64,000 bases of DNA from Aurantiochytrium sp. KH105. Taxonomy: Eukaryota; Sar; Bigyra; Thraustochytrida; Thraustochytriidae. The DNA lies in contig BGKB01000044.1 of the NCBI GenBank assembly GCA_003116975.1, positions 384,940 to 448,939 on the forward strand, written 5' to 3'. Each line of letters starts with the position of its first letter. The first letter of the stretch is position 1. Positions 44,021 to 64,000 of the stretch are shown piece by piece. The notes beneath the pieces are model-generated. The model was given only the letters and a program-made list of their open reading frames with translations. It was not told the origin of the DNA and made no database searches. The position numbers were made by a program, and so were the translations under genes.

Positions 44021-45799
44021 ATGATGCAGGCCGGCGGCATGGCCGCGGCATCGCAGATGGGCGGCGCCAACGCTTGCAGGCGGATCAGCCGCCGCCGCGG
44101 CCGGCGCGGGGAGCGGCGCGGCGCGTGGGCGCTGGCGCTGGGCGCGGTGGCGGTGGCGGTCGGCGCGCTGGCGGCGAGCGCCGCAGCGGAGACGGCCTCG
44201 TGCGACGGCCAGGCCAAGGGCGTCTCGTGCCTGCGCAAGCCCGAAAAGTGCCTCACATGGCGCAAGGCGCAGTTCATCGAAAGCTTCCCGGCCTTCGATG
44301 ACAACTACTTCATCCGCAAGCTGTACAAGTGCAACAGAGACCCGCGCAAGTCGCGCTGCTGCTGGGCCGACGCCGGCATGAACTATATTGGCGTCGATGA
44401 GTCGGCCGCCGAGAGCACCGTGAGTAGCGAGGACGCTGAGGCTCTCCCCGGCATTACCTGCGAAAATCCGCAGCGCCTGGCCAATGGCTCCTGGACCGAT
44501 CTCAAGCTCAACGTGGTCGGCGACTTTGAAGAGGTCGACCTCTACGAGGGCAACTACTCGTTTCCCATTTACGGAGACGCTGATCCGCCCGCAGCCTGCA
44601 CCTTTCTCATCTCCAACATTCGCTACCAGCTCGACGACGAGCAAGGCTCGTCCACACTTCCCTCCATGGGCGTGGTCGATCTTTCGAGCCCACGAAAGGG
44701 TCGCTGCAACCGCTACCCCAACAAGGACACGTGCGCGTGTAACACCGACGACGGTTCGTGTCCGGGCGTCTGCCTCCAGCTCAAGCGCCACTTTGAATGT
44801 CAGCACTGCACACGCCAGGAGTGCGCAGCCTTTTGCGACGGAGACTTTAGCTGTGCAGCCATGGAATACCAAAACAGCACGGAAATGTGCTGGATGCTCT
44901 ACCGACCGGGCTACATCCAAAATGTAGACCTGACTGACCTCGGGGCGGGCGTCAGCGAGAATGTCCCTTCCTTTACCTACGCGCAGCCCCTCTCGGTCCC
45001 GCCTCCCATTGAATCTGGATCCGCCCGAAGCGGCATCGACTGCTACGGCCGCTCACCGGACGCCGCACTCGACACAAAGTCTGTCGAGGTCGTCGACGAT
45101 GACGGTAATGGCGGCCGTTGCGCCATCTCGGACGCTTCCCAGCGCGTGCAGCGATGTGGGTCCTATTTTCCGCACATGGGCCAGTGCGGACCTGCCGAAT
45201 GCGCCTCGCTTTGCCGACAGGACCCGCTCTGCAGGGCGCACGAGTACAACGAGAACTTCAACCGCGGCCAGTGCTTTAGCATTTACGAGGAGCCTTCTGG
45301 CGTTGTCGAAGGCACGACCGGCACCTATCGCTGTTTCGCTGTGGATCGTTCTGTCGACACATATGATAGCGACTGGTTCCACGACTATCGTAACCACGGC
45401 TTTAGGGATCTCTCGACCGAGCCAGGCGGTGTCCCCATCGATCTGTACGACATTGTCGGTGGCAATCCTGGCGCGACCACGCAGCTCGCCTCGAGGCCAA
45501 CCGCCAGCCCGACGGAGAGCCCAACGGCAAAGAAGGCTGGCCGAGGACCGTGTTCCCTCAACTCGAAGCGCGGTCGTTGTTGCCACGCCATCAGTTCCTC
45601 CAGACGCCGCTGCTGCAAGGGCAAGATCGAGACCACGGAGGGACGTCAATGCTGCACCATCGTGTCACACCCCAACTATGACAAAATCGCCAAGTGCTGC
45701 AGCAAGTACACCATCAATGGCGAGACGTACCGTGATTGCGTCAGCAACCCTTCAACGAGCTCTGGGGAATACGCTGCCATCATCCGCACCTTTACATGA
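44021..45799 (+). CDS. CRP1: secreted multi-module cysteine-rich protein
   Basis: 592 residues from the ATG at 44021 (A at -3). The leader is long and basic: signal peptide or type II anchor at about 35-57 after an Arg-rich start; ATGs at codons 2, 7 and 13 are alternatives. Modules: N-terminal six-Cys domain ending YKCNRDPRKSRCCW (60-115); CENPQRLANGSWTDL module (147-225); PAN/apple-like module 1 with HFECQHCTRQECAAFCDGDFSC (229-295); PAN-like module 2 with CYGRS...RVQRCG...ECASLC...YRCF (341-438); DSDWFHDYRNHGFRDL (449-464); a short Pro/Thr/Ser linker (about 485-508); and the ten-Cys module (511-573) with CC at 520, 531, 544 and 559. Unlike its paralogues it lacks the Asp-rich tail. It is the most diverged intact member. 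Function unknown; likely extracellular or cell surface. Confidence 0.85.
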   Translation: MMQAGGMAAASQMGGANACRRISRRRGRRGERRGAWALALGAVAVAVGALAASAAAETASCDGQAKGVSCLRKPEKCLTWRKAQFIESFPAFDDNYFIRKLYKCNRDPRKSRCCWADAGMNYIGVDESAAESTVSSEDAEALPGITCENPQRLANGSWTDLKLNVVGDFEEVDLYEGNYSFPIYGDADPPAACTFLISNIRYQLDDEQGSSTLPSMGVVDLSSPRKGRCNRYPNKDTCACNTDDGSCPGVCLQLKRHFECQHCTRQECAAFCDGDFSCAAMEYQNSTEMCWMLYRPGYIQNVDLTDLGAGVSENVPSFTYAQPLSVPPPIESGSARSGIDCYGRSPDAALDTKSVEVVDDDGNGGRCAISDASQRVQRCGSYFPHMGQCGPAECASLCRQDPLCRAHEYNENFNRGQCFSIYEEPSGVVEGTTGTYRCFAVDRSVDTYDSDWFHDYRNHGFRDLSTEPGGVPIDLYDIVGGNPGATTQLASRPTASPTESPTAKKAGRGPCSLNSKRGRCCHAISSSRRRCCKGKIETTEGRQCCTIVSHPNYDKIAKCCSKYTINGETYRDCVSNPSTSSGEYAAIIRTFT

Positions 45800-45896
45800 G
45801 CACGTGCACGCGTGCTGAAGCCTGCTACTACTACTACTACTACCTACAACTCTGGTGTTGATTGACAGTGATTGAATAAAGAAACTTGGATTGTCG

Positions 45897-45928
<32 letters not shown>

Positions 45929-47193
45929 CACGTTGCAGTGCTGGATGCTTGAACTGACCGAAGTCCCTGGACGGACCCCATGCACTCCCTATGCACTCTA
46001 TTTTTCCAGAGGAAGACTATACGCAATGTCTTCAGAAGCCTTTCCTCCTCATGCAGCCACGAGGCTTAGACGCCCATGACAGACCCGCCCTCAAAGATCC
46101 CTCCCGTCGCCAAAAACAAAACTTCCTCGCGCGTCGCCGCTCGTTCGCGCTTTGCCTGCAGCCTGGCGGCTCGCGCCCGACTCCTTTCGCCCCCCAGCCA
46201 TTTATGGCTGCGCTAGGACGGGTCTCCATCTTGCGGGGCGCATACCACCGCCGCGGCCGCGACGCTCGCCTCGCCGGTGGCATGTGGCCGCCTCGCTTCG
46301 GATGGCCTCGCGGCGAGGGCAGCTAGCAGACTTGCCGCGGTTTGCCCGCTCGCGCGCTCTAAGGGACCTCGAGGAGGTCCCCGAAGCGCAACGGAAGGAG
46401 AAGAAGAGACTCGTCCGCAGCCGCGCGTGCTCAGCTGCAGCTGCAACTGCCAGTGGAAGAAGGAGAAGACGAAGAAGAAGGAGAAGAAGAAAAAGAAGGA
46501 GAAGGAAAAAGTGGAGAAGATGAGATGACCGCCGACCAACCAATCTTGGCGGCCCAGCCCAGGCCAGCCCAGCCCAGGCCTGACCTCTCAGCCCAGCCCA
46601 GCCCAGCCCGAGCCCGAGCCCGCGCGGATCGGGCGCCAAGAAGCTCCCTCCGAGCCAGCTAGCTAGCTGCAGCTGACTTGAGGCAAAAGAGCGAGCGAGG
46701 GGCTGGTTTTCTCTTTCCAGCGAGCTGCCATCGCTGCCTGCCTGAGACAGTGAGGACAGAGGCAGAGCCGCGCAGCCCGCACCGCTGCCGCCTGCAGCTG
46801 CCTGCGCGCGACCGGCCTCCGCAGCCGCGCCCGCGCAAGGACGCCGCGCCGTGCCGAGGCGCCGTCGTCGCGCGCAGCCGGCCGGTAGGAGTGTAAAAGC
46901 CGTCGCACGTGCTGCGCCCCTCAGGTTTTCCTCCTCTTTCCACCTCTTTCCACCTTTTACCAAGTTCACGTTCGCGTTTACTTTACTACTACATTCGCAT
47001 CTCTCAGCAACCTAACAGGAAACACGCGGGCGAGGGTCGCGTGCCCTGCCCCTCGCGCGCGCTACGCGGCAGAGCAAACCGGAAACCCAAGGCTTCTGGC
47101 GAAGAGTCGCGCGGAGAGCGAGGCCCTCTCGAGGGACGAAAGGCCGCGGTCCAACGAGCGCCGAGGCGAGGCGAAGCGAGGCGAGACAAGACG
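45800..47193. other. CRP1 3' flank and CRP2 5' flank
   Basis: Contains (CTA)n at 45826-45843, a probable polyadenylation signal at 45875, (TTGC)n at 45897-45928, an A/G-rich tract at 46450-46525, CAGCC-type tandem units at 46555-46615 and purely GC-rich DNA up to the CRP2 start. The CRP2 frame stays open for 95 codons upstream of its ATG but is Arg-rich with no other ATG, so I regard it as leader. Confidence 0.5.
45875..45880 (+). promoter_or_regulatory. Probable polyadenylation signal AATAAA of CRP1
   Basis: Canonical hexamer 76 bases after the CRP1 stop codon, in an AT-richer patch. Confidence 0.5.
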
Positions 47194-49035
47194 ATGGTGA
47201 GGGCCGTGGCGCGGACGCTCGCCCTCGTGGCGCTCGCGGTGGCGCTCGGCGGACTGGGCGAGGTCGAGGCGCTGTCCAAATGCGGAGCCAAGAGATATGG
47301 CCACATTGCGGACACGTGCAACTACAAGCCGAGGCCGCAGCAGGACAACTGCAAGCGGTGGGCGAGCAGAAACCTCATCAGAAGCATCGCGCCCTTCACG
47401 AGCGAAGATCAGCTGTACATGGTGCGCAAGTACGAAAGGTGCTCCAGACAAAACTTTCAAAAGGTGCGTTGCTGCTGGCAGCAAGTCGGCGACTCGTACA
47501 GACGACAAGTGGCATCCCGCCGGACGCTCCAGGACCTTTCCGAGGATGATGAACCCGTCGAGTTTGCCTGCGCCAATCCCGTCCAGCTGGAGAATGGAAC
47601 CTGGACGGATATTGAGTTTTACGTAGCCGGAGACGTCGCAGCACGAATCCCTCTGCCCGATGGAAACTACTCGATCCCCTTCTTTCCTCTCGTTTCAGAC
47701 ATTGATCCGCCCTCTGTCTGCAGTTTCATTCTCTTCTACCTCAAGTACAATTCCCCATCAGACGAATTCGTCTCCCAGCCTCAGCCAAAGCCCGACGTCG
47801 TTGATCTCTCGCAGCCATCCTCTGGCTCTTGCTCCCTCACCCCCAACGCTGATATCTGCTCTTGCTCATCTCGGGACGAGGATCCCGACTGCCCCGACTA
47901 CTGTCTCGAGCTCGAACGCTATCACCGCTGCAGGCACTGCTCTCATCAAGAGTGCGCAGCCATCTGTGACAGCATTGCAACCTGCGCAGGAATCGAGTAC
48001 CACAACAAGTCAGAGACCTGCAAGCTCATGCTCCATCCAGAATTTTCGACCACTGCTGACCTTCGGCTTTTGGGCGGAACCAACAACGAGTCCTTCCCCA
48101 GCTTTACCATTGGCCTTTCCTTGGAGGCGCCCCCTCTTGTTGAGGACGGGTCTGCTGACGGGTCGACTACCTGCTACGGACGATCCGAGAGTGCCGCGCT
48201 CAATGCCAAGGCTGTCGAGCTCAAGACGTCCTCTGGCCAGGGCGGCATGTGCGCGGTTTCGGACCCCTCGTATCGCGTGCAACGCTGTGGCCCTTCAGGG
48301 TTCAACAACGTCGGACTTTGTGGAGCTGCCGCCTGCTCGATCATGTGCGCGCAGGATCCTTCGTGCCAAGCGTATGATATCAACCTCGACGTGGACGAGG
48401 GTCTCTGCTTTCTCATTTACGAGGAGCTCCCTACCGAGGTGGTCGAAGGAACCTCGGACTCGTTTCGCTGCTATGTGATTGACCGCGATGTGACAGACGT
48501 GGAAAGTGACTGGTACAACCTCTTTGTGCACGTCGGCTATCGCGATGTGGCGAGCGAGCCCAACGGGACTGGTCTGAATCTTGCCAACCTCTTGGACAAC
48601 AACGTGATCGGGTTTGCAGAGACGGCAGCCCCTACACCAAGCCCGGTATCAACGTGCAAGACGGGTGGCTGCTCGTTGAACTGCAAGAAGAGTTCTTGCT
48701 GCAAGAGTGTTGGACTCCACGCGGAACGCTGTTGTGAGGGCGACAGATTCTCCGATACCGGACGCACATGCTGCACCTATGGAGGTTATTACTCCTCGGA
48801 TGAGTTCACGTGCTGTACTAAGATCAGAAACAAGAAGAAGGTCTGTGCGGTCGCCTCGGCGAAATCTTCCTTTGACGACCTGCTTGCAAGCGACGGCAGC
48901 TTCAATGCCAGCGACGTGGACCTTGCAGCACGAATTACGCACAATGCAGCATCTTCTGCACCATACGGAGATGATGCCAGCGATGACGATGACGATGGCG
49001 ATGATGATGTCGACGACGACGACGATTATTCTTAA
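47194..49035 (+). CDS. CRP2: secreted multi-module cysteine-rich protein with Asp-rich tail
   Basis: 613 residues from the ATG at 47194 (G at +4). Signal peptide about 1-26 (hydrophobic LALVALAVALGGLG, small residues before the cut). Modules: N-terminal six-Cys domain (30-95) with HIADTC, CKRW, YMVRKYERC and VRCCW; ACANPVQLENGTWTDI (125-140); PAN-like module 1 (213-285) with RYHRCRHCSHQECAAICDS and CAGIEY; PAN-like module 2 (327-427) with CYGRS, RVQRCG and CSIMC; DWYNLFVHVGYRDV (439-452); a very short linker (TAAPTPSPVST); the ten-Cys module (493-551) with CC at 502, 513, 526 and 540; and a tail of 19 residues that are mostly Asp (593-613). Several N-glycosylation sequons. The 3' flank carries a dispersed hairpin repeat 26 bases after the stop. 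Function unknown; secretion is a firm prediction, calcium or polycation binding by the tail is inference. Confidence 0.87.
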   Translation: MVRAVARTLALVALAVALGGLGEVEALSKCGAKRYGHIADTCNYKPRPQQDNCKRWASRNLIRSIAPFTSEDQLYMVRKYERCSRQNFQKVRCCWQQVGDSYRRQVASRRTLQDLSEDDEPVEFACANPVQLENGTWTDIEFYVAGDVAARIPLPDGNYSIPFFPLVSDIDPPSVCSFILFYLKYNSPSDEFVSQPQPKPDVVDLSQPSSGSCSLTPNADICSCSSRDEDPDCPDYCLELERYHRCRHCSHQECAAICDSIATCAGIEYHNKSETCKLMLHPEFSTTADLRLLGGTNNESFPSFTIGLSLEAPPLVEDGSADGSTTCYGRSESAALNAKAVELKTSSGQGGMCAVSDPSYRVQRCGPSGFNNVGLCGAAACSIMCAQDPSCQAYDINLDVDEGLCFLIYEELPTEVVEGTSDSFRCYVIDRDVTDVESDWYNLFVHVGYRDVASEPNGTGLNLANLLDNNVIGFAETAAPTPSPVSTCKTGGCSLNCKKSSCCKSVGLHAERCCEGDRFSDTGRTCCTYGGYYSSDEFTCCTKIRNKKKVCAVASAKSSFDDLLASDGSFNASDVDLAARITHNAASSAPYGDDASDDDDDGDDDVDDDDDYS

Positions 49036-49060
49036 GCAATCTTTTTCTAGATGATACCTT

Positions 49061-49109
49061 GCGGGGCTGAAGACCCCGCGATCTGAAGTGCGTTTCTAGT
49101 CCGAGCTGC
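49061..49109 (+). repeat. Dispersed hairpin repeat, copy B
   Basis: GCGGGG and CCCCGC arms around CTGAAGA at 49061-49079, followed by GATCTGAAGTGCGTTTCTAG. More blocks shared with copy A continue to about 49250. It begins 26 bases after the CRP2 stop, so it probably lies in the CRP2 3' UTR. Confidence 0.65.
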
Positions 49110-49724
49110 ATGGAACCTTCGTCAAAAAAAAATGTTGGCATAGAAGTCACGCAAGAGGAAATGTGCTTTCTCTTTGAGTGCGGAAGTACTTTCCGTTTTG
49201 AGAAAAAGCTGCTTCGAGCAAAAACTTAGCTGCCGCCACTCGTGCATGCATATATTCTCGGACTTCGCCGCTGCCCTTGTTTCTCTTATCAAAAACAAAT
49301 CGTCATGATCTCAGGGGGCACCTTGCGGAGAGACCCCACCCCCCCCCCCCCCCCCCCCTCGTCTGAGCCATAGGCATTCGAAATGGTGGCTGCCGCGATC
49401 TTTATTTGCTTCAAGCTGTCGGGCGAATGGGCGAACACCTCGCGTCTCTTCTTCGCGGGGGCGAACGGATCAAGTCGGAAGAACGGCTCGCGTCTCTTCA
49501 TTCATGACATTGCATTGCGAAGGGAGCCCACGTCTCAGAAAGTTCATTTTCGCACCCAAACGAGGCAGCGCGTGGCTGATTGAACATTTGAACGATGGAA
49601 TGGCTGCCTGCAGCGGGTTGCGGGTAGTCGCGAGCGGACAGTTCGCCCGTCGTCACCTGGCTGCAATGTGAGGTTAAGACACGACAAGACAAGCGAGCGC
49701 TCGCCGTTTCTTTCTCGTGTTTAG
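49110..49724. other. Spacer between CRP2 and the CRP5 relic, with C20 homopolymer
   Basis: No supportable gene. A run of about 20 C at 49339-49358 (preceded by ACCCCA) would give a G-run on the other strand. GACATTGCATTGCG at about 49506 resembles the pentamer found just upstream of CRP3 and CRP4 and may be what remains of the CRP5 leader. Confidence 0.45.
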
Positions 49725-50312
49725 ACCTCGACCACGTATCGTTGCTTTGTTGCGGATCGTGAAAATGTCACCGCCGATGACAACGACTGGCGGCATCCGT
49801 ATCACAACGATGGCTTTCGCGACATCGTGACCGAGGACGGTTTGAGCTTAAACCTCGAAGTGCTTGCAGAAAATCCTGGCACAAACATTCGGGACGATAT
49901 CGATGATACATCGCTGCCCAACAGTGAGTCGCCAACTCCAAATTCCACGCGAAAGTCGCGTAACAGAAAGTGCAGTCCCTCAAGGGGAGAGAAGAATGGT
50001 TGCTGTACGCGTGTTGGCACGGGAAGAAAATTCCGTTGCTGTAAGACCGACAACGAGGGTATTCGCCGCTGCTGCACGGGCAAAACCAGGTATTACCCGG
50101 AAGAAAACGAATATCTCTACAACCCGGATTACGAGTGCTGCGTGAAGTACGACAACGGAGAAGAACAGTGTATCGTGGCGCACAAGTCTGTGTTTGAGCA
50201 TGCGAAGGCGGCTGGTGAGCCCTATGCAAACGAGACATCAGACGTGCTTAGTCTTTGCAAGTTGCTCTCTCAATCCTCGAGCGAGGACGACGATGAGGAG
50301 AGTACATCATGA
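49725..50312 (+). pseudogene. CRP5: 5'-truncated CRP family relic
   Basis: The open frame runs from 49725 to the stop at 50310-50312 and encodes only the C-terminal third of a CRP protein. It starts inside the end of PAN-like module 2 (TYRCFVADRENV), passes through DNDWRHPYHNDGFRDI, a short linker, a full ten-Cys module (RKCSPSRGEKNGCC...FRCC...RRCC...YECC...EEQC) and an acidic SSSEDDDEESTS end. The frame meets a TAG immediately upstream, and no signal peptide or N-terminal modules are found in the preceding 600 bases. The boundary TTTCTTTCTCGTGTTTAG looks like a 3' splice site, so an unseen upstream exon is possible, but the intact paralogues have no intron here. Truncated pseudogene is the simplest reading; the ten-Cys module is undamaged. 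Confidence 0.75.
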
Positions 50313-50389
50313 GATCAAGTTAAAACAGATAATTCAATGAACACGTTGGGATTGAAGATAGATCATTGTGGCGTCGAGATGCGACCGAC

Positions 50390-50640
50390 CTGCAGATGTC
50401 AAGCAGAGTTTAGCCAACCCGGATCGGAGTTAAGTGAACAAAGTTTGCCCCTCGGGCCTTCTACTATGGCTGATGAGGAGGTCTTAACGTTAAACAGGGT
50501 CTTACCAAATCGGATTCGACTTTCTAAAAAATAAACACCTTCGGGCCTGTTACTACGACTAATGAAGAGGTCCAAACGTCGAGCAGAGCCCACTCAAGTC
50601 TGATCAGAGTCAAGGTGAAGAAAGAAGGAGGTGGATCTCA
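50390..50640. repeat. Three diverged tandem units of about 90 bp
   Basis: Equivalent points fall at 50403, 50494 and 50583. Shared text includes CAGAG/CAGGG...GATC/GATT...GGAGT and CGGGCCT(T/G)(C/T)TACTA, with about 30 percent divergence by eye. Confidence 0.6.
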
Positions 50641-51077
50641 GTTTCCATTTGAATGTACTGAGTCGAACTGATTATTGGTAGGACTATGTGCGCTCGGATC
50701 GCCAAGGCAGATTCGGGTCTGCCCTTATGAGAAGCATTTGTCTTGAGACTGAAAATTCGGTTTCACCTTGGCCCGCCTCGAAGTGAAGACACAGTTGGCA
50801 CTTCTTGCCGAGTCACCGAGCCTCTGCTTGTCCACGCCACCTGCAGAGTTTGACTTACCTCAGAGTTAGCGTGAGAAGAAAAAATACGCGACCCAGAAAC
50901 TATGGATTCATAGGAAACTCCCCATGGGTGCAAAGTTGACCTCATTGCTCTTGTGGCGCTGATGTCTGTTCACGTTCTTTACATTTTCCAAGAGTATGCT
51001 AATGAAGCATGGGTTTTGTTTGGATCTTCTCTCATGTACTGCCGGTTCCTTTTATCGTTCTTGTCGCTGCCCCTCGC

Positions 51078-51117
51078 AAAAGCGTACTTCAGGTCGCGAG
51101 GATCTTTGGAGATCCAG
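51078..51117 (-). repeat. Dispersed hairpin repeat, copy C
   Basis: On the minus strand a GGATCT/AGATCC stem with a 4-base loop is followed by CTCGCGACCTGAAGTACGCTTTTG, matching the flank of copy B with a few substitutions. The stem sequence differs from copies A and B but is still self-complementary. Confidence 0.5.
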
Positions 51118-51810
51118 ATAGACTAGAATTTATTGCCCACTTTAGTTGCGAAACTTCGTTGTAGCATGTTGCGACACATTTTATTGGTCTTAAAAATGGA
51201 CAACGTAGACCACTCCTGAAACGAAAAGTTCTCAATGGCATTCGTGTCACCGCCCGTTCTCTGCTCGCGCAAGTTCCAGAGGCCTTATGCAACGCGCTTG
51301 AACCAAATTGTTGTGTTGTTCAGCGTCAATGTCGGGCGGCGCTAAATCTGTTTTCCCTATGGATCTTGTTTTTATCGGCAATTCCCTGGAGTACCGCGAA
51401 GATGTTGACGATCTTTCAGAAGATAATTTGCGCACAACATTGACCACCCCTGACCGGCTGGTTGACAAGTCGGCCGAACGGTCTCGGCATTTACTTGCTG
51501 AGATTTGCGGCACGAGCCGTCGATCGACCCGTGGAGTCAGCCAGCCTTGGGCATGCATCCTCAGCGAGACTGGCAGCCCTTTGCTGCGTGCCAGACACCA
51601 ACGCGCTTGCTGGTAGAAGATTGCGCCTCGATCTTCCCGTCGCAAATCAAACAAGCTCTCACATCACCGTCTTTCCCGTCGTTCGTCGTTTGTCGCTGGT
51701 CTCCGCGCAGATCTTCGAATCTCCTTTCTTTACCTCGTGTCACGAATCCGTCCGGCCGCCAGGCAGCGATCATGCCAGATGACGTGACAGTGAGGACCAA
51801 CTCGCCCAGC

Positions 51811-51857
51811 CCGCTGTGAGCCAGTCGGCGAGACCCGCTGTGAGCCAGTCGGCGAGA
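51811..51857. repeat. 24-bp perfect tandem duplication
   Basis: CCGCTGTGAGCCAGTCGGCG plus four bases is repeated at 51811 and 51835. Confidence 0.9.
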
Positions 51858-53149
51858 TTAGGATTCTCTGCCTCAGAGTGACATGCCAAGTCCACCAACC
51901 AACTCCAAGTTGAAGCCGGTGCGCCGAATCTCCCAGATCTCTTCGAAAAAAAAGGAAGCAAAGAAAGGAGCAGCTCGATTGCTGCGAGCCGCTCGCTCCG
52001 CGTCAATGAACCGCGTCAAGCGAGTAAGCCCCCCTCAAAGACCTGGCTGGTTCGTCCCGGCGGGCTCGGCGCTCGCTCCCTCCCTCGCTCTCCGCGTCTC
52101 TCTCGCGCGACGGCCCGCGCCTCGCCTCGCCCCGCCTCGCCCCGACGCACGCGCTCGCGAGTACCCTCCAAAAGGGGCGCGGCATCTTATCTTCACCGTC
52201 GTCCGCACCAACCATCCCCTCAAACGCGGCGGCCTTCGCGCCGGCCCGCCGCCCAGTCACGGGCGGCTCGTGCTGGCCGCGGCGTGCCCTCGTCGCGCAG
52301 GGTCTTGCCGCCCCGGGCTGCGCGGCGACGTCTCGAGAGACGGTCGTCGCGACGCCATGCGCCATGCCATGCCATGCCCTACCATGCCATGCCATGCCAG
52401 GCCGCGCCACGCCACGCCGAGCCGAGCCCGCGTCAAGCCGCGCCGAGCCGGCGTCAAGCCGCGCTGGCCAGGCTAGGGTGCGGCAGGGGAGCCGCGCGCA
52501 GGCAGCAGGCAGCCGCCCGGGGTCCGCGTCCCCGCGGCGGCTTGACGAAGACTTTCTCGCCGCGGCGCACACCGCCGGGGCACGCGCGTGCACAACTTGG
52601 AGGACGAGACGAGCGCGCACCTTCGAAGAGCTTCCGGACCGCACCAACGGCCGGACTTTGCGCGTTTCCACGAATACAAACTGGACCTGCTCCGAGAGAA
52701 GATCGCGACGGCCGGCGGCCGGTCGAGGATCCCGGGGAGGGAGCTCGGGCTGAGCTGGAAACCTCGGGCTGGGCACGGCGCCGTCCGTCGCGCGACCCTC
52801 CATCATTGCGCTGTGGCAGGCACGACGGACCTTGGCGATCTTCATCCCCATCAATACTTGGTGATGGCGCCGCGCGTACCATCCCGAGCCTTCGCGGCGC
52901 TGCTGCGCGGCCTACGCCTCCCGAGCAAGTCGCCCTTCGCGGAGGACGCAGACGACCTGGCCGAGCTACGCCGCGGCCTCAGCTCGCGCCGGAGCGAGCG
53001 GGAGCGAGCCGCCATCATGCCGCGGGGTTTGGGGGGTGGGGTCCCCGGCCCGGAGACGATCCGAAGAGCCGCTTGTCTCGGATTGATTGCCTCTGAGAAA
53101 CGCGGCCCGCGTTGCTCGGCAGGGACCGAGGAGGAGGAAGCCAACATGC

Positions 53150-53311
53150 GCAGCAAACCCGCAACTGAGACGGCCGCGATCAGGGCGGCCAAGAGAAGCG
53201 TGCAGGCGAGCGAGTGGACGAGTGGACGAGCAAGGCGAAGGTGCGAGGCAAGGGCGACTGCATAACATTGCATTGCATTGCATTGTGTGGCAGACGGCAC
53301 GCGCGGCAACA
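53150..53311 (+). promoter_or_regulatory. CRP3 5' leader, duplicated in CRP4, with (CATTG)4
   Basis: This block is almost identical to 57390-57549 upstream of CRP4. Both end in a CATTG pentamer array (four units here, 53266-53285), the shared stretch GTGTGGCAGACGGCACGCGC and then the ATG. The near-identity of non-coding sequence argues for a recent duplication that copied the promoter. Confidence 0.7.
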
Positions 53312-55462
53312 ATGCGATTCGCGGTGGGCATCCTGCTCGTGGTGGTCCTGCTGGGGCTGCTGCGAGACGGCGAAGCGGCGAGCCAGTGCTCTGGAAAAAG
53401 AGAGGGCCACATCGCGACAACATGCAACAAGAAAAACTCTGATGAAGGGAAAGAAAAATGCAAAGGTTGGGCGAAGAAGCACCTCATCAACTCGATAAGT
53501 CCTTTTACTGGCAGAAACCAAGAGTACATGGTTCGTAAATATGATCGGTGCTCAAAAAATGGGTTTACCAAGGCACGTTGCTGCTGGAAAAAGTCAGGTG
53601 ACACTTGGAAAAGGGAAGTTAAGAAAGGAAGACGACTTCAAAGTGATGATGACGAGAGTGTCTTTGAGTGTGCAAACCCGGTGTTCAAAGAGAGCGCCAA
53701 CACCTGGACCAACCTGACATTCTACGTTTCGGGAAACATTGCCAATCTAACAGGTCTAGAGGATGGATTTCATTCCATCCCGTTTGAGCCGGTGCCTGGT
53801 GCTGATGTCAATCCTCCCTCGGCCTGCAAGTTCATCCGTACCAACATCCAACGTCTCGTTGCGGAGAGTTCTGATCAAGAAGAAATTCCCACGATCGATG
53901 TTGTGAATCTTGAAAAACCTGCCACGGGCATGTGCTCATTGACTCCCTTCAGCGGGGCGTGTCAGCAGTCCGACGACCCGGCTTACTGCAACGACCTCGA
54001 AAGCGAACACAGGTGCAGCGAGTGCTCGGTCGAGGATTGCGCTGCGGTCTGTAATGGTCTTGCGCCGTGTGCTGGCATCGAGTACTACACCGGGGACAAC
54101 AGCTGCAAGCTCATGATGCATCCAGAGTATGATGGTTCTGCGCAATTTAATTTCGTCACACCAGAGTCCGAGGAGGGTGAGGATCCTCCAACATCGGATG
54201 CAGAATTTCCGGCCTTCACCGTCGGGTACTCTCTGGAGGCGCCTCCTTCCATCATCAAGGGCTCGAAAAACTCTGGTGCCACATGCTATGGTCGTTCCAG
54301 CGAGACCGCGATCAATTCCAAGGCGGTCGAGGTGAAGACTGATGGAGGCTTGGGCGGAAGATGCAAGGTATCTGAGTCTGCGAACCGCGTTCAAAAGTGT
54401 GGTCCTGGGTTCGTCGGTCTTGGTCTTTGCGGGATCCCGACTTGCGCGTCCCTCTGTACGCAGAACGCACTTTGTAACGCCTACGAATACTTTTTGGACG
54501 GGGATGAGGGTCTCTGCTATCTGATCTTCAACGAAACTGTAACCACCGTCGAGCAAGATACGTCCTCCTTGTATCGGTGCTTTCATGTGGAGCGTGATGG
54601 TGTGCGTGTCGAGGATAGCGACTGGATGAATCCCTATCGAAACTTGGGCTACCGCGACATCAAGGGCAAGGATGGTGGGATAGGTCTGAATCTATTTAAC
54701 TTGACGGACAACCCTGGTGTCAGGATTCGCCCACCCACATCTCCCCCGGTCCTCACACCAGGTCCTACGGAAGTGCCAACGTCTGCACCCGCGACGTCTG
54801 GACCCACGTTGGGTCCTGCCACATCGACGACTCCCACGGAAATGCCAACGACTGCGCCCGCGTTTGTTGATCCTACGTTGAGTCCCGCCACGACGATGAG
54901 TCCCAGTACCATTACATTACCAACTGATGCACCAACTACTGCACCAACGACATTTACGCCATCGAGTGCCCCAGCCGAAACTGGCAGCAACTTTACATTG
55001 GCGCCGACAACCCTCGAACCAACCCCTATCCCCACACAGTCTCCAACACCTGCTCCAAAGGAGGATGTCGACATAGTACCAACACAAAACCCTACACGGT
55101 ACAAGCGATGCAGTCTGAGGAGGGGCCCTGATAAGGGTTGCTGCATTAAGCTTGGCAAGAGAAAGTTCCGCTGCTGCAAAACTTACGAGGACGTCCGCTA
55201 CTGCTGCACGGGTCGGAGTAAGAACATCCCAGAGGCTGACCAGGGATACGAGGAAAAGTTTACGTGCTGTGTGCGATATGAAGATGATACGGTCGAGTGC
55301 ATTGAGGAAGAGAGCGCGAAGACTGCGGATGATTCGGAACCAACCTCTGAGGCTATGAGTCTCTTGCAGGTCGCCCTTTCTGAGGACGATGGTGACGATA
55401 CGTACTACAACGCTTACTACAGTGACGACGATTACGAAGAGGGCAGCGATGCTGATGACTAG
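53312..55462 (+). CDS. CRP3: secreted cysteine-rich protein with long Pro/Thr linker and Asp/Tyr tail
   Basis: 716 residues from the ATG at 53312. Signal peptide about 1-23 (FAVGILLVVVLLGLL, GEAAS cut region). Modules: N-terminal six-Cys domain (26-92; HIATTC, EYMVRKYDRC, ARCCW); ECANPVFKESANTWTNL (119-135); PAN-like module 1 (208-267) with RCSECSVEDCAAVC and CAGIEYY; PAN-like module 2 (325-424) with CYGRSSETA, RVQKCG, CASLC and LYRCF; DSDWMNPYRNLGYRDI (435-450). A Pro/Thr/Ser/Ala linker of about 120 residues (473-596) is built from repeated PT/APTT phrases and is a likely target of dense O-glycosylation. The ten-Cys module (600-663) has CC at 610, 621, 631 and 652. The end is an Asp/Tyr tail with TYYNAYYSDDDYEE (697-711). 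Nearly identical to CRP4 over the central and C-terminal modules. Extracellular; function unknown. Confidence 0.88.
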   Translation: MRFAVGILLVVVLLGLLRDGEAASQCSGKREGHIATTCNKKNSDEGKEKCKGWAKKHLINSISPFTGRNQEYMVRKYDRCSKNGFTKARCCWKKSGDTWKREVKKGRRLQSDDDESVFECANPVFKESANTWTNLTFYVSGNIANLTGLEDGFHSIPFEPVPGADVNPPSACKFIRTNIQRLVAESSDQEEIPTIDVVNLEKPATGMCSLTPFSGACQQSDDPAYCNDLESEHRCSECSVEDCAAVCNGLAPCAGIEYYTGDNSCKLMMHPEYDGSAQFNFVTPESEEGEDPPTSDAEFPAFTVGYSLEAPPSIIKGSKNSGATCYGRSSETAINSKAVEVKTDGGLGGRCKVSESANRVQKCGPGFVGLGLCGIPTCASLCTQNALCNAYEYFLDGDEGLCYLIFNETVTTVEQDTSSLYRCFHVERDGVRVEDSDWMNPYRNLGYRDIKGKDGGIGLNLFNLTDNPGVRIRPPTSPPVLTPGPTEVPTSAPATSGPTLGPATSTTPTEMPTTAPAFVDPTLSPATTMSPSTITLPTDAPTTAPTTFTPSSAPAETGSNFTLAPTTLEPTPIPTQSPTPAPKEDVDIVPTQNPTRYKRCSLRRGPDKGCCIKLGKRKFRCCKTYEDVRYCCTGRSKNIPEADQGYEEKFTCCVRYEDDTVECIEEESAKTADDSEPTSEAMSLLQVALSEDDGDDTYYNAYYSDDDYEEGSDADD

Positions 55463-57389
55463 GGTGCGTAGGCCTCTAAACTTTTAAAAAGGATCCCACA
55501 AAGTACAGCGCAAAATTTCTCTCGAGTGGGGAATTTGATTTATTCAAAAAGCAGCATCGCTCAACGCGACGCTTTTGCGGAGCCTTGAGAACGGAAGCTG
55601 CAGCACAGCTTGCAAGGCTATGAGATGCTATGGCCTCGTTTGTTTTCAAGGAAAAAAGTTTGATTCGTTTTGCTGGGCAGTCTACATTTCCTTTGGTTTT
55701 ACGTTGGTGTCGACTCTTGCTCATTCCACCTGCGCGTTCCAAGTACATATCCTCGAGTTTTCGCCCGATAAAGATTGATTTATAGAGCAGGAACATGCTG
55801 CATTGACCCTATTACACCGCGTACGGCTTGGGTAAGCCGAACAGAAGAGTTCTTGTCGATCGATTCTTCACAATGGATAAGCGTGCACAAGACTGCCAAA
55901 GCCACTTAATTCGAGGCAGTCGGAGCTCACCACAACGCCCGAAAGGCCTGCAGGCAGGAGCCGCTTTAAAAAAGGACTGCTTAGAGTCCATTTCCGACCG
56001 CCACGCATGCAGTGCGGGAAGCTTGCCTCCGAAAGCCCGAAAAGGCGTTAGCGATTCCTCTCGTGTGGATTCCACTTGCGGCCAGAGAGCGAAAGGCTCT
56101 AGCTTCTATAGCTACGAGGAACCTCTCGCCTTTCTCTGCAATTCCGGTGCTGTGCAAACGAGAGGCCTCATTTGCTCGAGTCCCGAACGAGACAACCCCT
56201 TTTGAAACTGCAATCCTTTTCAGTACGCGGGTTCACTTGCAGCCCCGAAGTCTTAGCCATGCATGCGGTCTCGCTCTGCTCCAACAGACAGTCTGCTTGA
56301 ACATATTCGTTATCAGCAGCTGAGCAGAAGCTTGTGGCAAGAATCATCTTTCCGTGGTGTCCAAACAAAGACCGAGCTGCTCCTTCAATTATTCCTTTGA
56401 AGGCGTGGACTTTGTTGGCGTCGAGGCGGCCACCGGTGCCAACGTTGCTTGTCCTTGGCATACGCCAAAGCTGGGTTCTTCAGGAAAGTCCTTGACGCGA
56501 AGAGCGACTCCGATAAGTCTCAGTATTTTCAAAGTCAAACCGAACTTCCAGTTGCGGGGTCTTCAGCCCCGCAGAGTATTTATGTCCCGCCAATGACATG
56601 ACTAAACCGCGCGCATCGCTCGCGCTCGCCCGTCCGCCCCGCACGCGCGCGCGTCGGTCTGGCAGGCGTGACGACACGCTCGCCCTCACGCAGCTGCCAC
56701 CGAGCGTCGCCGCCCCGAGGCGACTTGACGAAGATCTCCTGACCGACGCACAAGCGCGTAGGTGGGCATTACATGAGGTGCCCGGACAGTGTACAGGGCT
56801 TTTTACCACATAACAATGTAAGGCTTGGCTCGGCCTTGACGGGCGAAGTAGAACTTGACGAGGAGGCGAAGCGCCAGCAATGCGGCAGGGCTGCTCCCGC
56901 GCGCACACCTGCACCAAGATCGCGACAGTCGCGGTCGGCGGCCGGTCGAGAACGCGAAAGGAGCGCGAGCAGAGCCAGGAAAAACGTGACGACCCGACGC
57001 CGTCCGTAGCGCTCCATCATGAATTTGAGGGCCGCGCCATTTATGACGGCACGGCGCCATCCTTGGCGCTCCATCATGTAATGGAGGTCCGCGCCAGCCT
57101 CTGGCACCGCGTCGCCAGATCGGACTTTCCCGAGCCCGCAGGGTGCCGTCCGTTGAGCTGCTGCGCGATCTGCGCCAACGCGCCACGGAGGTCGCAGGCG
57201 GCCTGGCGACGGCGGCCCGGCGGAGGCGGCCTGGGCTGACAGCGAGGAGGCCTGCGGGATCGCGGCGAAGAGTGTGCGAGCCCGCTTGCTTCCATCACGC
57301 CCTCCAGGACGCAGACGATCCGAAGAGACGCTTCTGGAGAAACGCGGCGCTGCGTTGCTCGGCGGGGACCGCGAAGGGCGGAGCAAACA
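55463..57389. other. CRP3 3' flank and CRP4 5' flank
   Basis: The CRP3 3' flank to about 55600 has counterparts after CRP4 (AATTTGAT...GCAGCAT.GCT.AA.GCGACG), so the duplicated block includes some 3' DNA. Bases 55800-56500 are AT-balanced with short frames; one minus-strand ATG frame at 56168-56461 looks protein-like but matches nothing I know. Dispersed hairpin copy D lies at 56535-56576. From about 56600 GC-rich DNA resembles in patches the region upstream of CRP3. Confidence 0.5.
56535..56576 (-). repeat. Dispersed hairpin repeat, copy D
   Basis: The stem-loop at 56554-56572 is the exact reverse complement of copy B's 19-base hairpin, here on the minus strand and followed by AACTGGAAGTTCGGTTTGAC. 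Confidence 0.65.
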
Positions 57390-57549
57390 AGCGCAGCAAA
57401 CCCGCAACTGAGACGGCCGCGATCAGGGCGGCCAAGAGAAGCGTGCAGGCGAGCGAGTGGACGAGTGGACGAGCAAGGCGGAGGTGCGAGGCAAGGGCGA
57501 CTGAATAACATTGCATTGCATTGTGTGGCAGACGGCACGCGCGGTAACG
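57390..57549 (+). promoter_or_regulatory. CRP4 5' leader, duplicated from CRP3, with (CATTG)3
   Basis: Near-identical to the CRP3 leader, with three CATTG units (57509-57523) instead of four and only a few substitutions up to the ATG. Confidence 0.7.
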
Positions 57550-59607
57550 ATGCAATTCGCGGTGGGCCTCCTGCTCGGGGTGGTCCTGTTGGGGCTGCTG
57601 CGAGACAGCGAAGCGGTAGAGACGTGCGGTGGTATCCGAAAGGGCCACATCGCTAAAACATGCAAGAAGAAATTTGGCGAAAAGAAAGAAAAATGCAAAC
57701 GTTGGGCGCAGAATAATCTGATCCAATGGATAGGTCAATTTAAACCAGATATGGAGATGAATGTTCAGGAATACATGGTTCGCAAATATTCTAGATGCGA
57801 GAGAAATGGGTTTAACAAGACGCGCTGCTGCTGGCAAAAGAAAGGTGAAGTTGCCTATGGCACTTCATCGGTTCAAGATGTCTTTGAGTGTGCAAACCCG
57901 GTGTTCAAAGAGAGCGCCAACACCTGGACCAACCTGACATTCTACGTCTCGGGAAGCATTGCCAATCTAACAGGCCTAGCGGACGGATTTCATTTCATCC
58001 CGTTTGAGCCGGTGCCTGGTGCTAATATCATCCCTCCCTCGGCCTGCAAGTTCATCCGTACCAACATCCAACGTCTCGTTGCGGAGAGTTCTGATCAAGA
58101 AGAAATTCCCACGATCGATGTTGTGAATCTTGAAAAACCTGCCACGGGCACGTGCTCTTTGACTCCCTTTAGCGGGGCATGTCAGCAGTTCTTCGACCCG
58201 GCTTACTGCAACGACCTCGAAAGCGAACACAGGTGCAGCGAGTGCTCGGTCGAGGATTGCGCTGCCGCTTGTAATGGTCTTGCGCCGTGCGCTGGCATCG
58301 AGTACTACACGGGGGACAACAGCTGCAAGCTCATGATGCATCCAGAGTATGATGGTTTCGCGCAATTTCATTTCATCACACCTGAGTATGAGGAAGGTGA
58401 GGATCCGCCTATATCAGCCATCGCAGCCGAGGAAGGTGAGGTGTCTGCAACATTGACAGTGACAGTGAATGCAACATTTCCGGCTTTCACCGTCGGGTAC
58501 TCTCTGAAGGCGCCTCCTTCCATCATCGAGGGCTCGGAAAACTCTGGTGCCACATGCTATGGCCGTTCCAGCGAGACCGCGATCCATTCCAAGGCGGTCG
58601 AGGTGAAGACTGATAGAGGCTTGGGCGGAAGATGCAAGGTATCTGAGTCTGCGAACCGCGTTCAAAAGTGTGGTCCTGGGTTCGTCGGTCTTGGTCTTTG
58701 CGGGATCCCGACTTGCGCGTCCCTCTGTACGCAGAACGCACTTTGTAACGCCTACGAATACTTTTTGGACGGCGATGAGGGTCTCTGCTATCTGATCTTC
58801 AACGAAATTGTAACCACCGTCGAGCAAGATACGTCCTCCTTGTATCGGTGCTTTCATGTAGAGCGTGATGGCGTGCGTGCCGAGGACAGCGACTGGATGA
58901 ATCCCTATCGAAACTTGGGCTTCCGCGACATCAAGGGCAAGGATGGTGGGATAGGTCTGAATCTATTTAACTTGACGGACAACCCTGGTGTCATAATTCG
59001 CACGCCCACACCTCCCCCGGTTCTCACACCAGGTCCTACGGAAATACCGACGACGAGTCCCGTTGAACTACCGGTAACGGCGGCCCCTTTCATGGGTGAA
59101 GGCGATCAGCCAGATGCACCGACAACCCTCGAACCAGCCCCAATCCCCACACAATCTCCAACACCAATTGACGGGGAAACAACAGTTCCATCAAATGCAC
59201 CGACACAATATCCTTCGATTGTACCGACACAAAACCCTACACGGTACAAGCGGTGTAGTCTGAGGAGAGGCCCTGATAAGGGTTGCTGCATTAAGCTTGG
59301 GAAGAGAAAGTTCCGCTGCTGCAAAACTTACGAGGACGTCCGCTACTGCTGCACAGGTCGGAGGAAAAACATCCCGGAGGCCAACCAGGGATACGAGGAA
59401 AAGTTCACGTGCTGCGTGCGATATGAAGATGATACGGTCGAGTGCATCGAGGAAGAGAGCGCGAAGACTGCGGATGATTCGGAACCAACCTCTGAGGCTA
59501 TGAGTCTCTTGCAGGTTGCCCTTTCTGAGGACGATGATGACGAAACGTACTACAATGCTTACTACAGTGACGACGATTACGATGAGGGCAGCGATGCTGA
59601 TGACTAG
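57550..59607 (+). CDS. CRP4: secreted cysteine-rich protein, recent duplicate of CRP3
   Basis: 685 residues from the ATG at 57550. The signal peptide (1-22) is almost the same as in CRP3. The N-terminal six-Cys domain (26-95) has diverged strongly from CRP3 (TCGGIRKGHIAKTCKKK against QCSGKREGHIATTCNKK, plus a longer KPDMEMNVQ loop). From the CANPVFKESANTWT module onward the two proteins are close to identical. Differences are a 19-residue insert at about 289-308 (AIAAEEGEVSATLTVTVNA), a shorter Pro/Thr linker (about 485-565 against 473-596), and scattered substitutions. The ten-Cys module (569-632, CC at 579, 590, 600 and 621) and Asp/Tyr tail (658-685) are conserved. No disabling lesion. Secreted or surface protein of unknown function. 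Confidence 0.88.
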   Translation: MQFAVGLLLGVVLLGLLRDSEAVETCGGIRKGHIAKTCKKKFGEKKEKCKRWAQNNLIQWIGQFKPDMEMNVQEYMVRKYSRCERNGFNKTRCCWQKKGEVAYGTSSVQDVFECANPVFKESANTWTNLTFYVSGSIANLTGLADGFHFIPFEPVPGANIIPPSACKFIRTNIQRLVAESSDQEEIPTIDVVNLEKPATGTCSLTPFSGACQQFFDPAYCNDLESEHRCSECSVEDCAAACNGLAPCAGIEYYTGDNSCKLMMHPEYDGFAQFHFITPEYEEGEDPPISAIAAEEGEVSATLTVTVNATFPAFTVGYSLKAPPSIIEGSENSGATCYGRSSETAIHSKAVEVKTDRGLGGRCKVSESANRVQKCGPGFVGLGLCGIPTCASLCTQNALCNAYEYFLDGDEGLCYLIFNEIVTTVEQDTSSLYRCFHVERDGVRAEDSDWMNPYRNLGFRDIKGKDGGIGLNLFNLTDNPGVIIRTPTPPPVLTPGPTEIPTTSPVELPVTAAPFMGEGDQPDAPTTLEPAPIPTQSPTPIDGETTVPSNAPTQYPSIVPTQNPTRYKRCSLRRGPDKGCCIKLGKRKFRCCKTYEDVRYCCTGRRKNIPEANQGYEEKFTCCVRYEDDTVECIEEESAKTADDSEPTSEAMSLLQVALSEDDDDETYYNAYYSDDDYDEGSDADD

Positions 59608-60556: not shown

Positions 60557-61708
60557 TTAGCGGCCGAGGGAGGCGCGCTTGAGCTTGCTACCAAGGCCAA
60601 CAATGGACTTGCGCGGGCCCTTGGTGAGGTGGATGCCGAGGAAGGACTGGCGGCGAGGCGCGTCGAGCACGGCAGTGTGGAAGAGCTTGGCCGTGACGAG
60701 GTACGGGTCCATGTTGGAGGCCGGGCGGCGGTCCTCAAGGTAGCCGCGGCCCTTCTCCCGGGTCTCGTTGCCGACACGAACCGAGGCGCCACGATCGGCG
60801 AAGCCCCACTTGAAGGTGTCAATGGAGGCGGTCTCGTGGGCACCGGTGAGACGGAGCTCGTTGTCAGTACCGTAGATGGCAATGTGCTCTGCGTGCTTCT
60901 TGCCGAGGCGCTCGATGGCGGGGATGATGACCTTGTCGAGAGCGTTCTTGCCCTCGCGCATCTTCTTGGTGGAGAAGTTGGTGTGGCAGCCGGCACCGTT
61001 CCAGTCGCCGGGGATAGGCTTGGGGTCGAGGGATGCGATGATGCCGTACTTTTCGGCGAGGCGGTTGAGGATGTAGCGGGCGACCCAGAGCTGATCGGCG
61101 CCGTCAATGCCGACGCAAGGGCCAACCTGGAACTCCCACTGTCCAGGCATGACCTCGGCGTTGATGCCAGAGACGTTGAGGCCAGCGTAGAGGCACATGG
61201 CGAGGTGCTCCTCGACGATGTCGCGACCAAAGGCGACGTCAGCGCCGGCTCCGCAGTAGTACGGGCCCTGGGGTCCGGGGTAGCCGAGGGTCTTTGTGGG
61301 TCCGCCGAAGGCGCGGGCCTTGGAATGCGGCCAGCCGAGAGGAGTGCCGTCCTTGAACATGGTGTACTCCTGCTCGATGCCGAACCAGGGGATCTCCTTC
61401 TTGCCGGCCTCGAAGATGGCGGCGGCGGCGGCGCGGGTGTTGGTGGGGATGGGCTCGCCTTGCGGGGTGTAGGTGTCGGTGAGCACGAGGACGTGGTTGC
61501 CGTTCTTGCGGAAGGGGTCCGGGTAGATGACGCGGGGGACGATCATCACCTCGGAGTCCTCGCCGGGAGCCTGGCCTGTGCTGGACCCGTCATAGTTCCA
61601 GTTGGGCAGGTCCTTGAGCTTGATCGTGTCCTTGTTGTGGAAGACGCGGGTCTTGCTTCGGAGGCCGCCGTAGGCGTCAATCCAGATGTACTCCGCGAGC
61701 ACGACCAT
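60557..61708 (-). CDS. Glutamine synthetase, eukaryotic type II (GSII)
   Basis: The ATG at 61708 gives 383 residues. The beta-grasp N-terminus ([18 protein letters not shown]) is followed by [19 protein letters not shown] (37-55), the ATP/Glu-site strand WFGIEQEYT (108-116), [10 protein letters not shown] (146-155), [17 protein letters not shown] (181-197), [20 protein letters not shown] (234-253), [11 protein letters not shown] (289-299) and [23 protein letters not shown] (314-336). These include the metal-binding Glu/His residues and the adenine-site Arg. It is an octadecameric/decameric-type cytosolic enzyme that makes glutamine from glutamate, NH4+ and ATP, and would assimilate the ammonium brought in by AMT-A and AMT-B. 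No obvious transit peptide follows this ATG. The upstream leader stays in frame for 87 codons (Gln-rich CTG/CAG repeat) but has no ATG. Length is slightly above the usual 355-370. Confidence 0.96.
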
Positions 61709-64000
61709 GGTTCCTCTGCTTCTGCTCCTTCGAGGGTAAACCTGCTGCTGCTGCTGCTGCTGCTCTTGCTCTTGCTCTTGCTGCTGCGGCTGCTCCTGGC
61801 AACGCAATGCAAGGCGAAAGCACGGCCGGTCTCGTTCTGCACGGGACTGCCTGCTGGCCCTCGAATGGTGTTTGCTGCGTGCAGAGGCCGCCTCTCTCTC
61901 TGGCTCCGGAGGCGAGAAACAGCCGAGGTGAGCGGGAAATGGGTGCAAAGGAAACAAAGAAACAGCCACCTAACTAAAAAGAATTAACCAAAGCAGACAG
62001 AGGGGGAGAGGAGAGGAGAGAGAGCGCGGGCCGCGCGAGCACTGCTCCCTCCCTTCCTGCGGCGCAGAGGGAGCCTCCCTGAGGGCGGCGCCAGAGAAGA
62101 CGGAGCCGCGCCCGGGGCCGCGTGCTGCGCCGCGTGCGCCGGTGGACACGGCGAAACCCGAGAGAGGAGAGAGCGCAGAGTCGAGCGGACTGGAGAGCAG
62201 CTGGGCGGAGTGGAGAGTAGTCGTGGCGTGGCGTGGCGTGGCGTGGAGTGGAGTGGAGTGGAATGGAATGGACGGAGGGGAGAGGACTTCTTTTACCAAT
62301 CTTTATTTTGTTTTCTTTCTTTCCTTCTTTTTTTGTTTCTTTCTCTCTCTCTGCCCCCCTCTCCCTCCTTGTCTCTAGCTGTCCGCGCGCGCGCCGGAGC
62401 GGGTGTGGGGAGAGAGTGTGGGTGTGCAAGAGGACTGGAGTGTGCGCCTTCTGAAAGGTAAGAAGAATGAATGACTGGATGTAAGAAAAAATCAAAGAAA
62501 GAAAGAAAGAAAGAAGGAAAACTGTGCTTTCCGCTTACTACATTTCTTTGTCGAGTCAATGAAAAACCTCGATCGGCGATCGGAGCGCGCGCGCGCAGTG
62601 CAGGCACCAGCCGCGCTCTCTCGGCCATCCCTTCCCATCCATGCTTGCTTCCTTCCTCACCCTGGAGCCTCCGGAAGCGGGCGGGCGCGAGCGAGCGCGA
62701 GCGAGCGCGAGCAGGAAGGAGCAGGAGCAGCAGCAAGGCGAAGAATCGAATACAAAATGTGCACCGCATTGTAGAGCAGGACAAAAGCCAGGCGAGCGAA
62801 AGCTTGCAAGCTGGCTTTCGGCCGCCATCGATCGGCCTTGGCCACCCATTTTCGATTCTTTCAAAGAAGCTGCCTGGCCCGCCCCGCGAGCTTGCGTTGC
62901 TGATGGCAGTGAGTTCAAGAAGAAGTAGAAGAAGAAGAAGAAAAAGGAGACGGAGAAGAAACCTGAAAGAAATTGTCATCCGTACACTCGCCGGAGCCGC
63001 CAGGGCGCGAGTGTGCACGCGCTGCCAAGCCAGCGTCGGTCAGTCAGTCAGTCAGTCAGACAGTCAGTCAGCAGCATGCTGGGCTGAGCAGGCACGCAAA
63101 TGTGTGTGTGTGTGTGTGCAGGCGTGCACACGTCTCCGAGCAGCAATCGTTGTCATTCTCAGCACCGCTCGCTTCCGCGCGCTTCCGCGCCTCGCGTTTC
63201 GACCGAAGAAAAGAAAGAAAGCCCTGGTCGATCAATCCATCCGACGGAAACTCGCCAAGGCGGGCGAGTCTCTGTCTGCAGCTGCGACCAGCCAGGCCCG
63301 TTGATTGCAGCTGCAGCAGCAGGTCTCTTGCCTTGCTTTGCTTTGACCTGAGGCATTGCAATGCACTTGCACAACTCCTCGCTCCCCTTTCTTCCATGCG
63401 CCAATGATGCACAGTGCATGCATTGCAAATTCTCTTCCCAGTGTGCACTTTTTTACGGGCGCCTCCCGCCCTCAATTTCTGCTCCGCGGACCCTGCACGT
63501 GCTGCGGCGCGAGCCTGCCCAACCGCGCTCTCCTTCCCGACCCTTTCCTCCTTTCACCTCGCCTCGCGCTGCCGCGGCCTCAGCGGCAGCCGCCCGCGAG
63601 CGCCTGTCACGCAGGACCGTCCCGCGCGCGCGGCGCTGCGTCCACCCATCCAGCCTCGCCGGCCCGCCAAAAAGGCCGGCGTCGCCGGGAGCGCGCCGCT
63701 CGGCCTGTGCTGCTCGCGCCTGCTCGCGTCCATTGTCCCGCGAAGAAAGCGAAGAAAGAGGGAGAGAGGGAGGCGGAGGAGGAAAGAGGCCGGCCGCGGC
63801 GACCCCCATCGCCTGTCCCGGGGCATTCACGCTCTTTTCGAGATTCACTGGTGAGCCTTTTTCACGTGCTTGCAGCTGCTTGCTTGCATTCTTGGCTGGT
63901 TGGGTTGGGTTGCCATGGTCGAGGGACTTGACAGGCCAGTGCTGCGAGAGCCGCAGATGATGCGACAGATGCCGCAGATTCTGCGCTTGGTGCTCATTTT
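61709..64000. other. Glutamine synthetase 5' region and GC-rich tail, no supportable gene
   Basis: Contains (CTG)n at 61742-61764 in the GS leader, GTGGC/GTGGA tandem units at 62222-62265, CT- and GA-rich tracts (62320-62370, 62495-62520, 62915-62965), (GTCA)n near 63040-63068 and (TG)n at 63100-63118. Long open frames on both strands are low-complexity Arg/Ser/Ala/Lys and are not credible genes. A gene beginning beyond 64000 could have its 5' region here. Confidence 0.5.
61742..61764. repeat. (CTG)n tract in the glutamine synthetase leader
   Basis: Seven to eight CTG units followed by CTCTTG hexamers, 34 bases upstream of the GS ATG. In the GS mRNA this is a CAG tract. Confidence 0.85.

Follow-up and report, generated by a model that had tools for sequence, protein, structure and literature searches.

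We analysed a 64,000-nucleotide window of contig BGKB01000044.1 from the thraustochytrid Aurantiochytrium sp. KH105 (C44:384940-448939), in which positions 44021 to 59607 carry a tandem array of genes for secreted cysteine-rich proteins (CRP1 to CRP5). The central new observation is a nearly constant PAN core in these proteins, whereas one end module of certain pairs of copies forms an island of divergence in which the cysteines are kept. These islands, together with differences of the array between haplotypes, had been overlooked in the original prediction made from the window alone. Based on sequence features and on analogy to characterized apple-domain proteins, the CRPs may be secreted glycan-binding adhesion or matrix proteins whose end modules would set partner specificity, a reading to which we assign a probability of about 0.5. 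The features discussed are located as follows, in window coordinates.

CRP1: 44021-45799, + strand, open frame, 592 amino acids
CRP2: 47194-49035, + strand, open frame, 613 amino acids; 40 cysteines; acidic tail
CRP2 PAN/apple module 1: 47824-48075, + strand, C-x3-C-x5-C-x11-C
CRP2 PAN/apple-like module 2: 48169-48504, + strand, C-x3-C-x5-C-x13-C
CRP2 CC-doublet module: 48664-48858, + strand, diverged between the two alleles
CRP3 relic: open frame 49725-50309, stop 50310-50312, + strand, 5'-truncated, 195 C-terminal codons only
CRP4: 53312-55462, + strand, 716 amino acids; 36 cysteines; long proline/threonine (P/T)-rich linker; acidic tyrosine-rich tail
CRP5: 57550-59607, + strand, 685 amino acids; near-duplicate of CRP4 except for N-terminal module and linker
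CRP5 divergence island: 57617-57878, + strand, N-terminal six-cysteine module plus the link after it

Constant core and divergent end modules

The open frames confirmed the predicted four intact genes and one truncated relic, all on the + strand. The four intact proteins align over their full length and contain all modules in a common order: signal peptide, six-cysteine N module, WT module, two cysteine modules (PAN1 and PAN2), a DW...G(F/Y)RD motif, a P/T linker, and the CC-doublet (CC) module. Linker length in the family varies between about 15 and more than 110 residues. Some predicted details needed adjustment. The DWxxxxRxxGxRD motif is present, with its R replaced by V in CRP2 and by H in the relic; ten cysteines were found in the CC modules of CRP1, CRP4, CRP5 and the relic while CRP2 has 12; and the acidic tail, described as usual, occurs in CRP2, CRP4 and CRP5 and in short form in the relic, CRP1 being without one. 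CRP1 has 38 cysteines past the signal region and a long basic stretch ahead of its signal sequence. The relic, whose open frame is preceded by a TAG at 49722-49724, retains the end of PAN2, the DW motif, the linker, the CC module and the tail. In agreement with the predicted secreted cysteine-rich family, a signal peptide is common to the four intact proteins, and the 12 intact copies found in the genome have 36, 38 or 40 cysteines past the signal region, always an even number. No membrane span was detected past the signal region, as no 19-residue stretch beyond residue 70 exceeded a hydropathy of 1.53.

Searching the genome (76 Mb, 367 contigs) yielded 13 full-length reading frames, 12 of them open and one, on contig C29, with one internal TGA, in addition to the relic. 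Beyond the window, copies were located as a set on contig C116, at C44:359505 about 24 kb upstream (C44up), and on contigs C130, C35, C9, C39 and C29. Flank alignment defined the allele pairs C44up/C130, C39/C29 and C35/C9, and paired the window with C116. Comparison of CRP2 with its C35 paralogue gave a nonsynonymous divergence (dN) of 0.18, a synonymous divergence (dS) of 1.21 and a dN/dS of 0.15, which argues that the proteins are real and constrained.

Taking WT, PAN1 and PAN2 as the core, amino-acid differences in single modules were compared with those in the core by Fisher test. Between the CRP2 alleles, 18/61 CC residues differ versus 9/314 core residues (p 9e-10), and between the C44up/C130 alleles 16/68 versus 12/312 (p 1.2e-6). 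The effect was also seen between loci, where C44up and C39 differ at 26/68 CC and 10/312 core residues (p 3e-14); divergent CC modules over a near-unchanged core also emerged for C44up or C130 against C39 or C29. In case of CRP5, the N module is affected, with 25/66 residues differing from CRP4 (p 3e-9) and 27/66 from the C116 copy (p 2e-10). Aligned codon windows in this island are 65-79% identical to CRP4 and lie between repeats of 94% and 96% identity. None of the 11 cysteine columns of the CC module was changed in any of the five pairs checked. The hypergeometric chance of this was 0.014 for the CRP2 alleles, 0.039 for C44up/C130, 0.003 for C44up/C39, 0.002 for C130/C29 and 0.39 for C39/C29, the five tests not all being independent.

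One possible explanation is a recognition or conflict system that would tell self from non-self or recognise mates, prey or microbes. The CC module (and the N module of CRP5) would then be a variable domain held on a cysteine scaffold and shaped by diversifying or balancing selection, while the PAN core would serve as its constant anchor. The CC excess over the core in C44up/C130, the CRP2 alleles and C44up/C39, with all cysteine columns retained, speaks for such a system. Further, among 29 windows of 100 bases compared between C44up and C130, identity drops to 86-90% in the four that cover CC module and tail, all of them among the five lowest, whereas the three non-coding windows directly 3' of them reach 99-100%. 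However, the CC island is not general. A clear one was found in two of five allele pairs (CRP2 and C44up/C130), while CC modules are unchanged between the CRP1 alleles (0/60 residues) and nearly unchanged between C35/C9 (1/58) and CRP4, CRP5 and the C116 copy (1-2/68; dN/dS 0.02-0.04). C39/C29 differ at 6/79 CC residues (p 0.11), or at 13/109 with the tail included (p 0.002). The fifth low C44up/C130 window (87%) is non-coding and lies 300 bases further on, and the 3' flank of the CRP2 alleles has diverged as well (83-87%).

The substitution rates also speak against this explanation. In the divergent pairs dN/dS was 0.8-1.3 and thus not clearly above 1, and dS was mostly raised in the islands, reaching 0.30 in the C44up/C39 CC module and 0.72 in the CRP4/CRP5 N module, the WT module of the latter pair having 0.07. 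The synonymous excess over the core was significant for C44up/C39 CC (p 0.002), the CRP4/CRP5 N module (p 0.004) and C44up/C130 (p 0.04), and not significant for the CRP2 alleles (p 0.18) and C39/C29 (p 0.63). Higher dS is not expected from amino-acid selection by itself. It agrees better with alleles maintained over a long time next to a homogenised core, or with module exchange from a diverged copy, as suggested by the several islands with raised dS. We regard a recognition or conflict system as unlikely.

Copies and haplotypes

Allelism and diploidy were inferred from collinearity and from paired PfaD-family genes. Matches to the PfaD family (TIGR02814) were found on C72, C155, C17 and C58, representing two loci, each on two contigs, with open frames of 1845-2152 amino acids. 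Such genes are expected of the thraustochytrid polyunsaturated fatty acid synthase and thus agree with the thraustochytrid origin that the original prediction had called likely.

The C116 haplotype holds CRP1 (98% identical to the window allele), CRP2 and one CRP4/5-type gene; neither the CRP3 relic nor a second CRP4/5-type copy was found on it, and the relic-bearing segment 49331-50631 of the window corresponds to only about 315 bases there. Scored at the sites separating CRP4 from CRP5, the C116 gene is a mosaic. It is CRP4-like in the signal peptide (12/12 sites), N module (48/55), N link (21/22), WT (7/10) and PAN1 (25/31), and CRP5-like in PAN2 (7/9), the DW region (5/7) and the tail (4/5). 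A switch from CRP4 to CRP5 occurs within the linker (36 then 18 of 57 sites) and the CC module is mixed (8 and 5 of 13).

This mosaic, along with the many cysteines and the widely varying linkers, would also suit a structural protein of wall, scale or net matrix. Disulfides and P/T linkers would here form an insoluble coat, PAN modules would assemble it through protein-protein contacts, and end-module variation would result from relaxed constraint plus gene conversion. Simple relaxation leaves the conservation of the cysteine columns unexplained in four of the five pairs (chance 0.002-0.039), C39/C29 being the exception. We consider such a structural role doubtful.

The array had been described as expanded. 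The family is indeed multi-copy, although modest in size, with six loci in the genome and seven on the window haplotype. At E 0.001 the genome contains at least 97 PAN_1 and at least 87 PAN_4 matches, with overlapping sets and both haplotypes counted, so that the CRP family is a small branch within a PAN-rich genome. Long, apparently paired runs of PAN-domain open reading frames (ORFs) of up to about 2,300 amino acids were noted at C1:569000-650000 and C26:1028000-1109000, and the one inspected (L017) has PTDSPT-type linkers.

A second, more decayed C-terminal relic is present upstream of the C39 and C29 genes (L015:1496-1861; L016:8482-8847, - strand) and consists of DW region, linker and CC module in an interrupted frame. 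Repeated DNA segments with many overlapping matches lie upstream of the C44up, C130, C39 and C29 genes (L011:1600-3800; L014, L015, L016). Around 10 kb of C116 (C116:18595-28720) are missing from the window haplotype near window position 40428.

Candidate function and related proteins

The middle modules had been predicted to be PAN/apple-like, and this is borne out, if weakly, by PAN_1 (PF00024), the sole Pfam family matching all 12 copies scanned (E up to 1; best E 1.6e-4). CRP4 (21.9 bits) and CRP5 (21.6 bits) lie just above the gathering score of 21.4 bits. DUF3089 matched in one of the 12 copies. A profile of PAN module 1 gave three PDB matches up to E 0.1, namely TgMIC4 (E 4e-4), plasminogen (0.033) and SML-2 (0.039), and a 12-copy full-length profile searched up to E 10 matched TgMIC4 alone (E 0.036). 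The CX3CX5CX11C hairpin of module 1 is present in all 13 full-length copies, as is the x13 spacing in module 2.

Neither Pfam nor the PDB yielded a credible match to the N, WT or CC module, and within these two databases the earlier view that no named family covers the whole architecture was upheld. The WT module had zero Pfam matches; the N-module match to DENR_N (1/12 copies) and the PDB matches of the N and WT modules (designed protein, ribosomal S14, NELF-E and others) were at chance level and were rejected. Within HMMER's filters, Pfam granulin did not match the CC module in any of 13 members up to E 10. Galaxin (PF24748) matched 4/13 bare CC modules (best E 0.017) and 3/10 CC modules with tails (E 0.007-0.033, under the 28-bit cut-off). 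Homology was rejected because 8/10 cysteine-fixed shuffles matched too (best E 4.8e-4), indicating that CC spacing alone suffices for the signal. The sole genomic PF24748 match, on C182 in a tandem-repeat stretch, was taken to be an artefact: its 215-amino-acid frame has zero CC doublets and is out of frame with a 772-amino-acid frame that is presumably helicase-like. With the CRP2 N and CC modules as queries, the genome returned only the known family copies and the second relic, besides two weak N-module matches (E 0.047 and 0.28). Viral contigs and GTDB genomes were each scanned for two short peptide patterns conserved in the family, and no relatives were found. Among titles and abstract openings, no account of the CRP module architecture was found, and no paper in the literature searched combined 'thraustochytrid' and 'PAN domain'.

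The glycan-binding reading is supported at the sequence level by the common module order, lack of a membrane span, even cysteine numbers, PAN/apple-like core, purifying selection and divergent ends in some copies. According to this proposal, the CRPs would be disulfide-bonded, non-enzymatic, secreted proteins whose two PAN modules may bind polysaccharides, galactose-containing or sulfated, that belong to the wall or matrix of the cell itself or to a substrate, by analogy with MIC4 and CBEL. The basic N module (charge +4 to +12), the CC module, which carries a positive charge in most copies, and the acidic tail could form a second contact. Tail charge is -17 to -23 in CRP2, CRP4/5 and the C35/C9 copies, -8 to -10 in C44up, C130, C39 and C29, and 0 in CRP1. 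The protein would thus link one matrix to another, or the cell to a surface, and exchange of end modules between copies and haplotypes would bring in a different partner without altering the lectin-like core.

Several points weigh against such a role. PAN domains bind proteins too, and the fold alone does not imply lectin activity. The E-values of the PAN matches are modest, CRP1 (18.1 bits) and CRP2 (15.2 bits) fall below the PF00024 gathering score, and the profile of PAN module 2 alone found no PDB match. The charge of the CC module is -3 in C44up and C130, 0 in C29 and +1 in C39.

The basic N modules also bring to mind a processed precursor. Directly past the N module, 10/13 full-length copies carry RR(x)LQ (RRxLQ or RRLQ), a site that we take to resemble S1P, kexin or PEXEL-type sites, and cleavage there would free a basic six-cysteine peptide, e.g. 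an antimicrobial or signalling one. The site is missing in both CRP1 alleles and in CRP5, and we judge this explanation quite improbable.

Comparison with known systems helps to place the glycan-binding reading. Sarcocystis SML-2 binds galactose. Like the CRPs, MIC4 and SML-2 are secreted apple-domain proteins, and both match CRP PAN module 1 in the PDB; the comparison covers the profile match and, for MIC4, the cysteine spacing. The CX3CX5CX11C spacing of module 1 is also that published for TgMIC4 (PMC3261864). Toxoplasma gondii MIC4 is described as a galactose-binding adhesin in which K469 matters (PMC6608980); by its description it has six apple domains, compared with two plus other modules in the CRPs. 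For Toxoplasma P104, adhesion via chondroitin sulfate is reported for an N-terminal piece with two apple domains (PMC3261864). The oomycete protein CBEL, reported to bind galactose/N-acetylgalactosamine by surface plasmon resonance, is likewise a secreted protein, located in the wall of a stramenopile, and combines two PAN/apple domains with a P/T-rich hinge (PMC3532174). It differs in having a CBM1, for which the CRPs gave no Pfam match; in its place they have the six-cysteine, WT and CC modules and, in most cases, an acidic tail. Galaxins, described as di-cysteine repeat proteins of corals of which some have an acidic domain, are secreted as well and likewise combine CC doublets with an acidic stretch (PMC2726143), but their likeness to the CRP CC module is one of spacing alone. 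A further comparison is A0A6S8AHQ2 of Aurantiochytrium limacinum, a settlement-induced candidate ectoplasmic-net protein; compared by description only, it is similarly predicted to be extracellular and is reported to be MIC4- and SML-2-like by Phyre2/HHpred (PMC12221091). Thraustochytrid walls are reported to consist of sulfated polysaccharides in which galactose and xylose occur (PMC11642839).

Little is known of the molecules by which labyrinthulids stick to and sense surfaces via walls and ectoplasmic nets, for which a proteome study of A. limacinum proposed candidates (PMC12221091). After its MIC4-like candidate, the CRP family is a second pointer to apple proteins of the MIC4 type, and it adds three modules (N, WT and CC) without a recognised Pfam or PDB family. 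Each divergence island affects a single disulfide module, and some separate even the two alleles of one gene, which makes partner or self-recognition directly testable. A more far-reaching and quite improbable idea is that the CRPs might form a lectin-anchored recognition family of Labyrinthulea, with a constant PAN core and exchangeable cysteine-scaffolded end modules, some of them divergent alleles in a heterozygous diploid, for possible self/non-self, mating or partner recognition.

Neighbouring genes

The original prediction placed no other gene between the CRPs. Judged on ORFs of at least 250 amino acids, three intervene, at 46205-46969 (- strand), 52006-52854 (- strand) and 52284-53093 (+ strand); shorter ORFs and spliced genes were left out. 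None of the three gave a Pfam match at a threshold of E 0.01. The array is neighboured by an ammonium transporter gene (PF00909) at 36856-38235 (+ strand) and a glutamine synthetase-like gene (PF00120) at 60560-61969 (- strand). An inverted 82% match to window positions 60674-61703 sits at C116:51790-52816.

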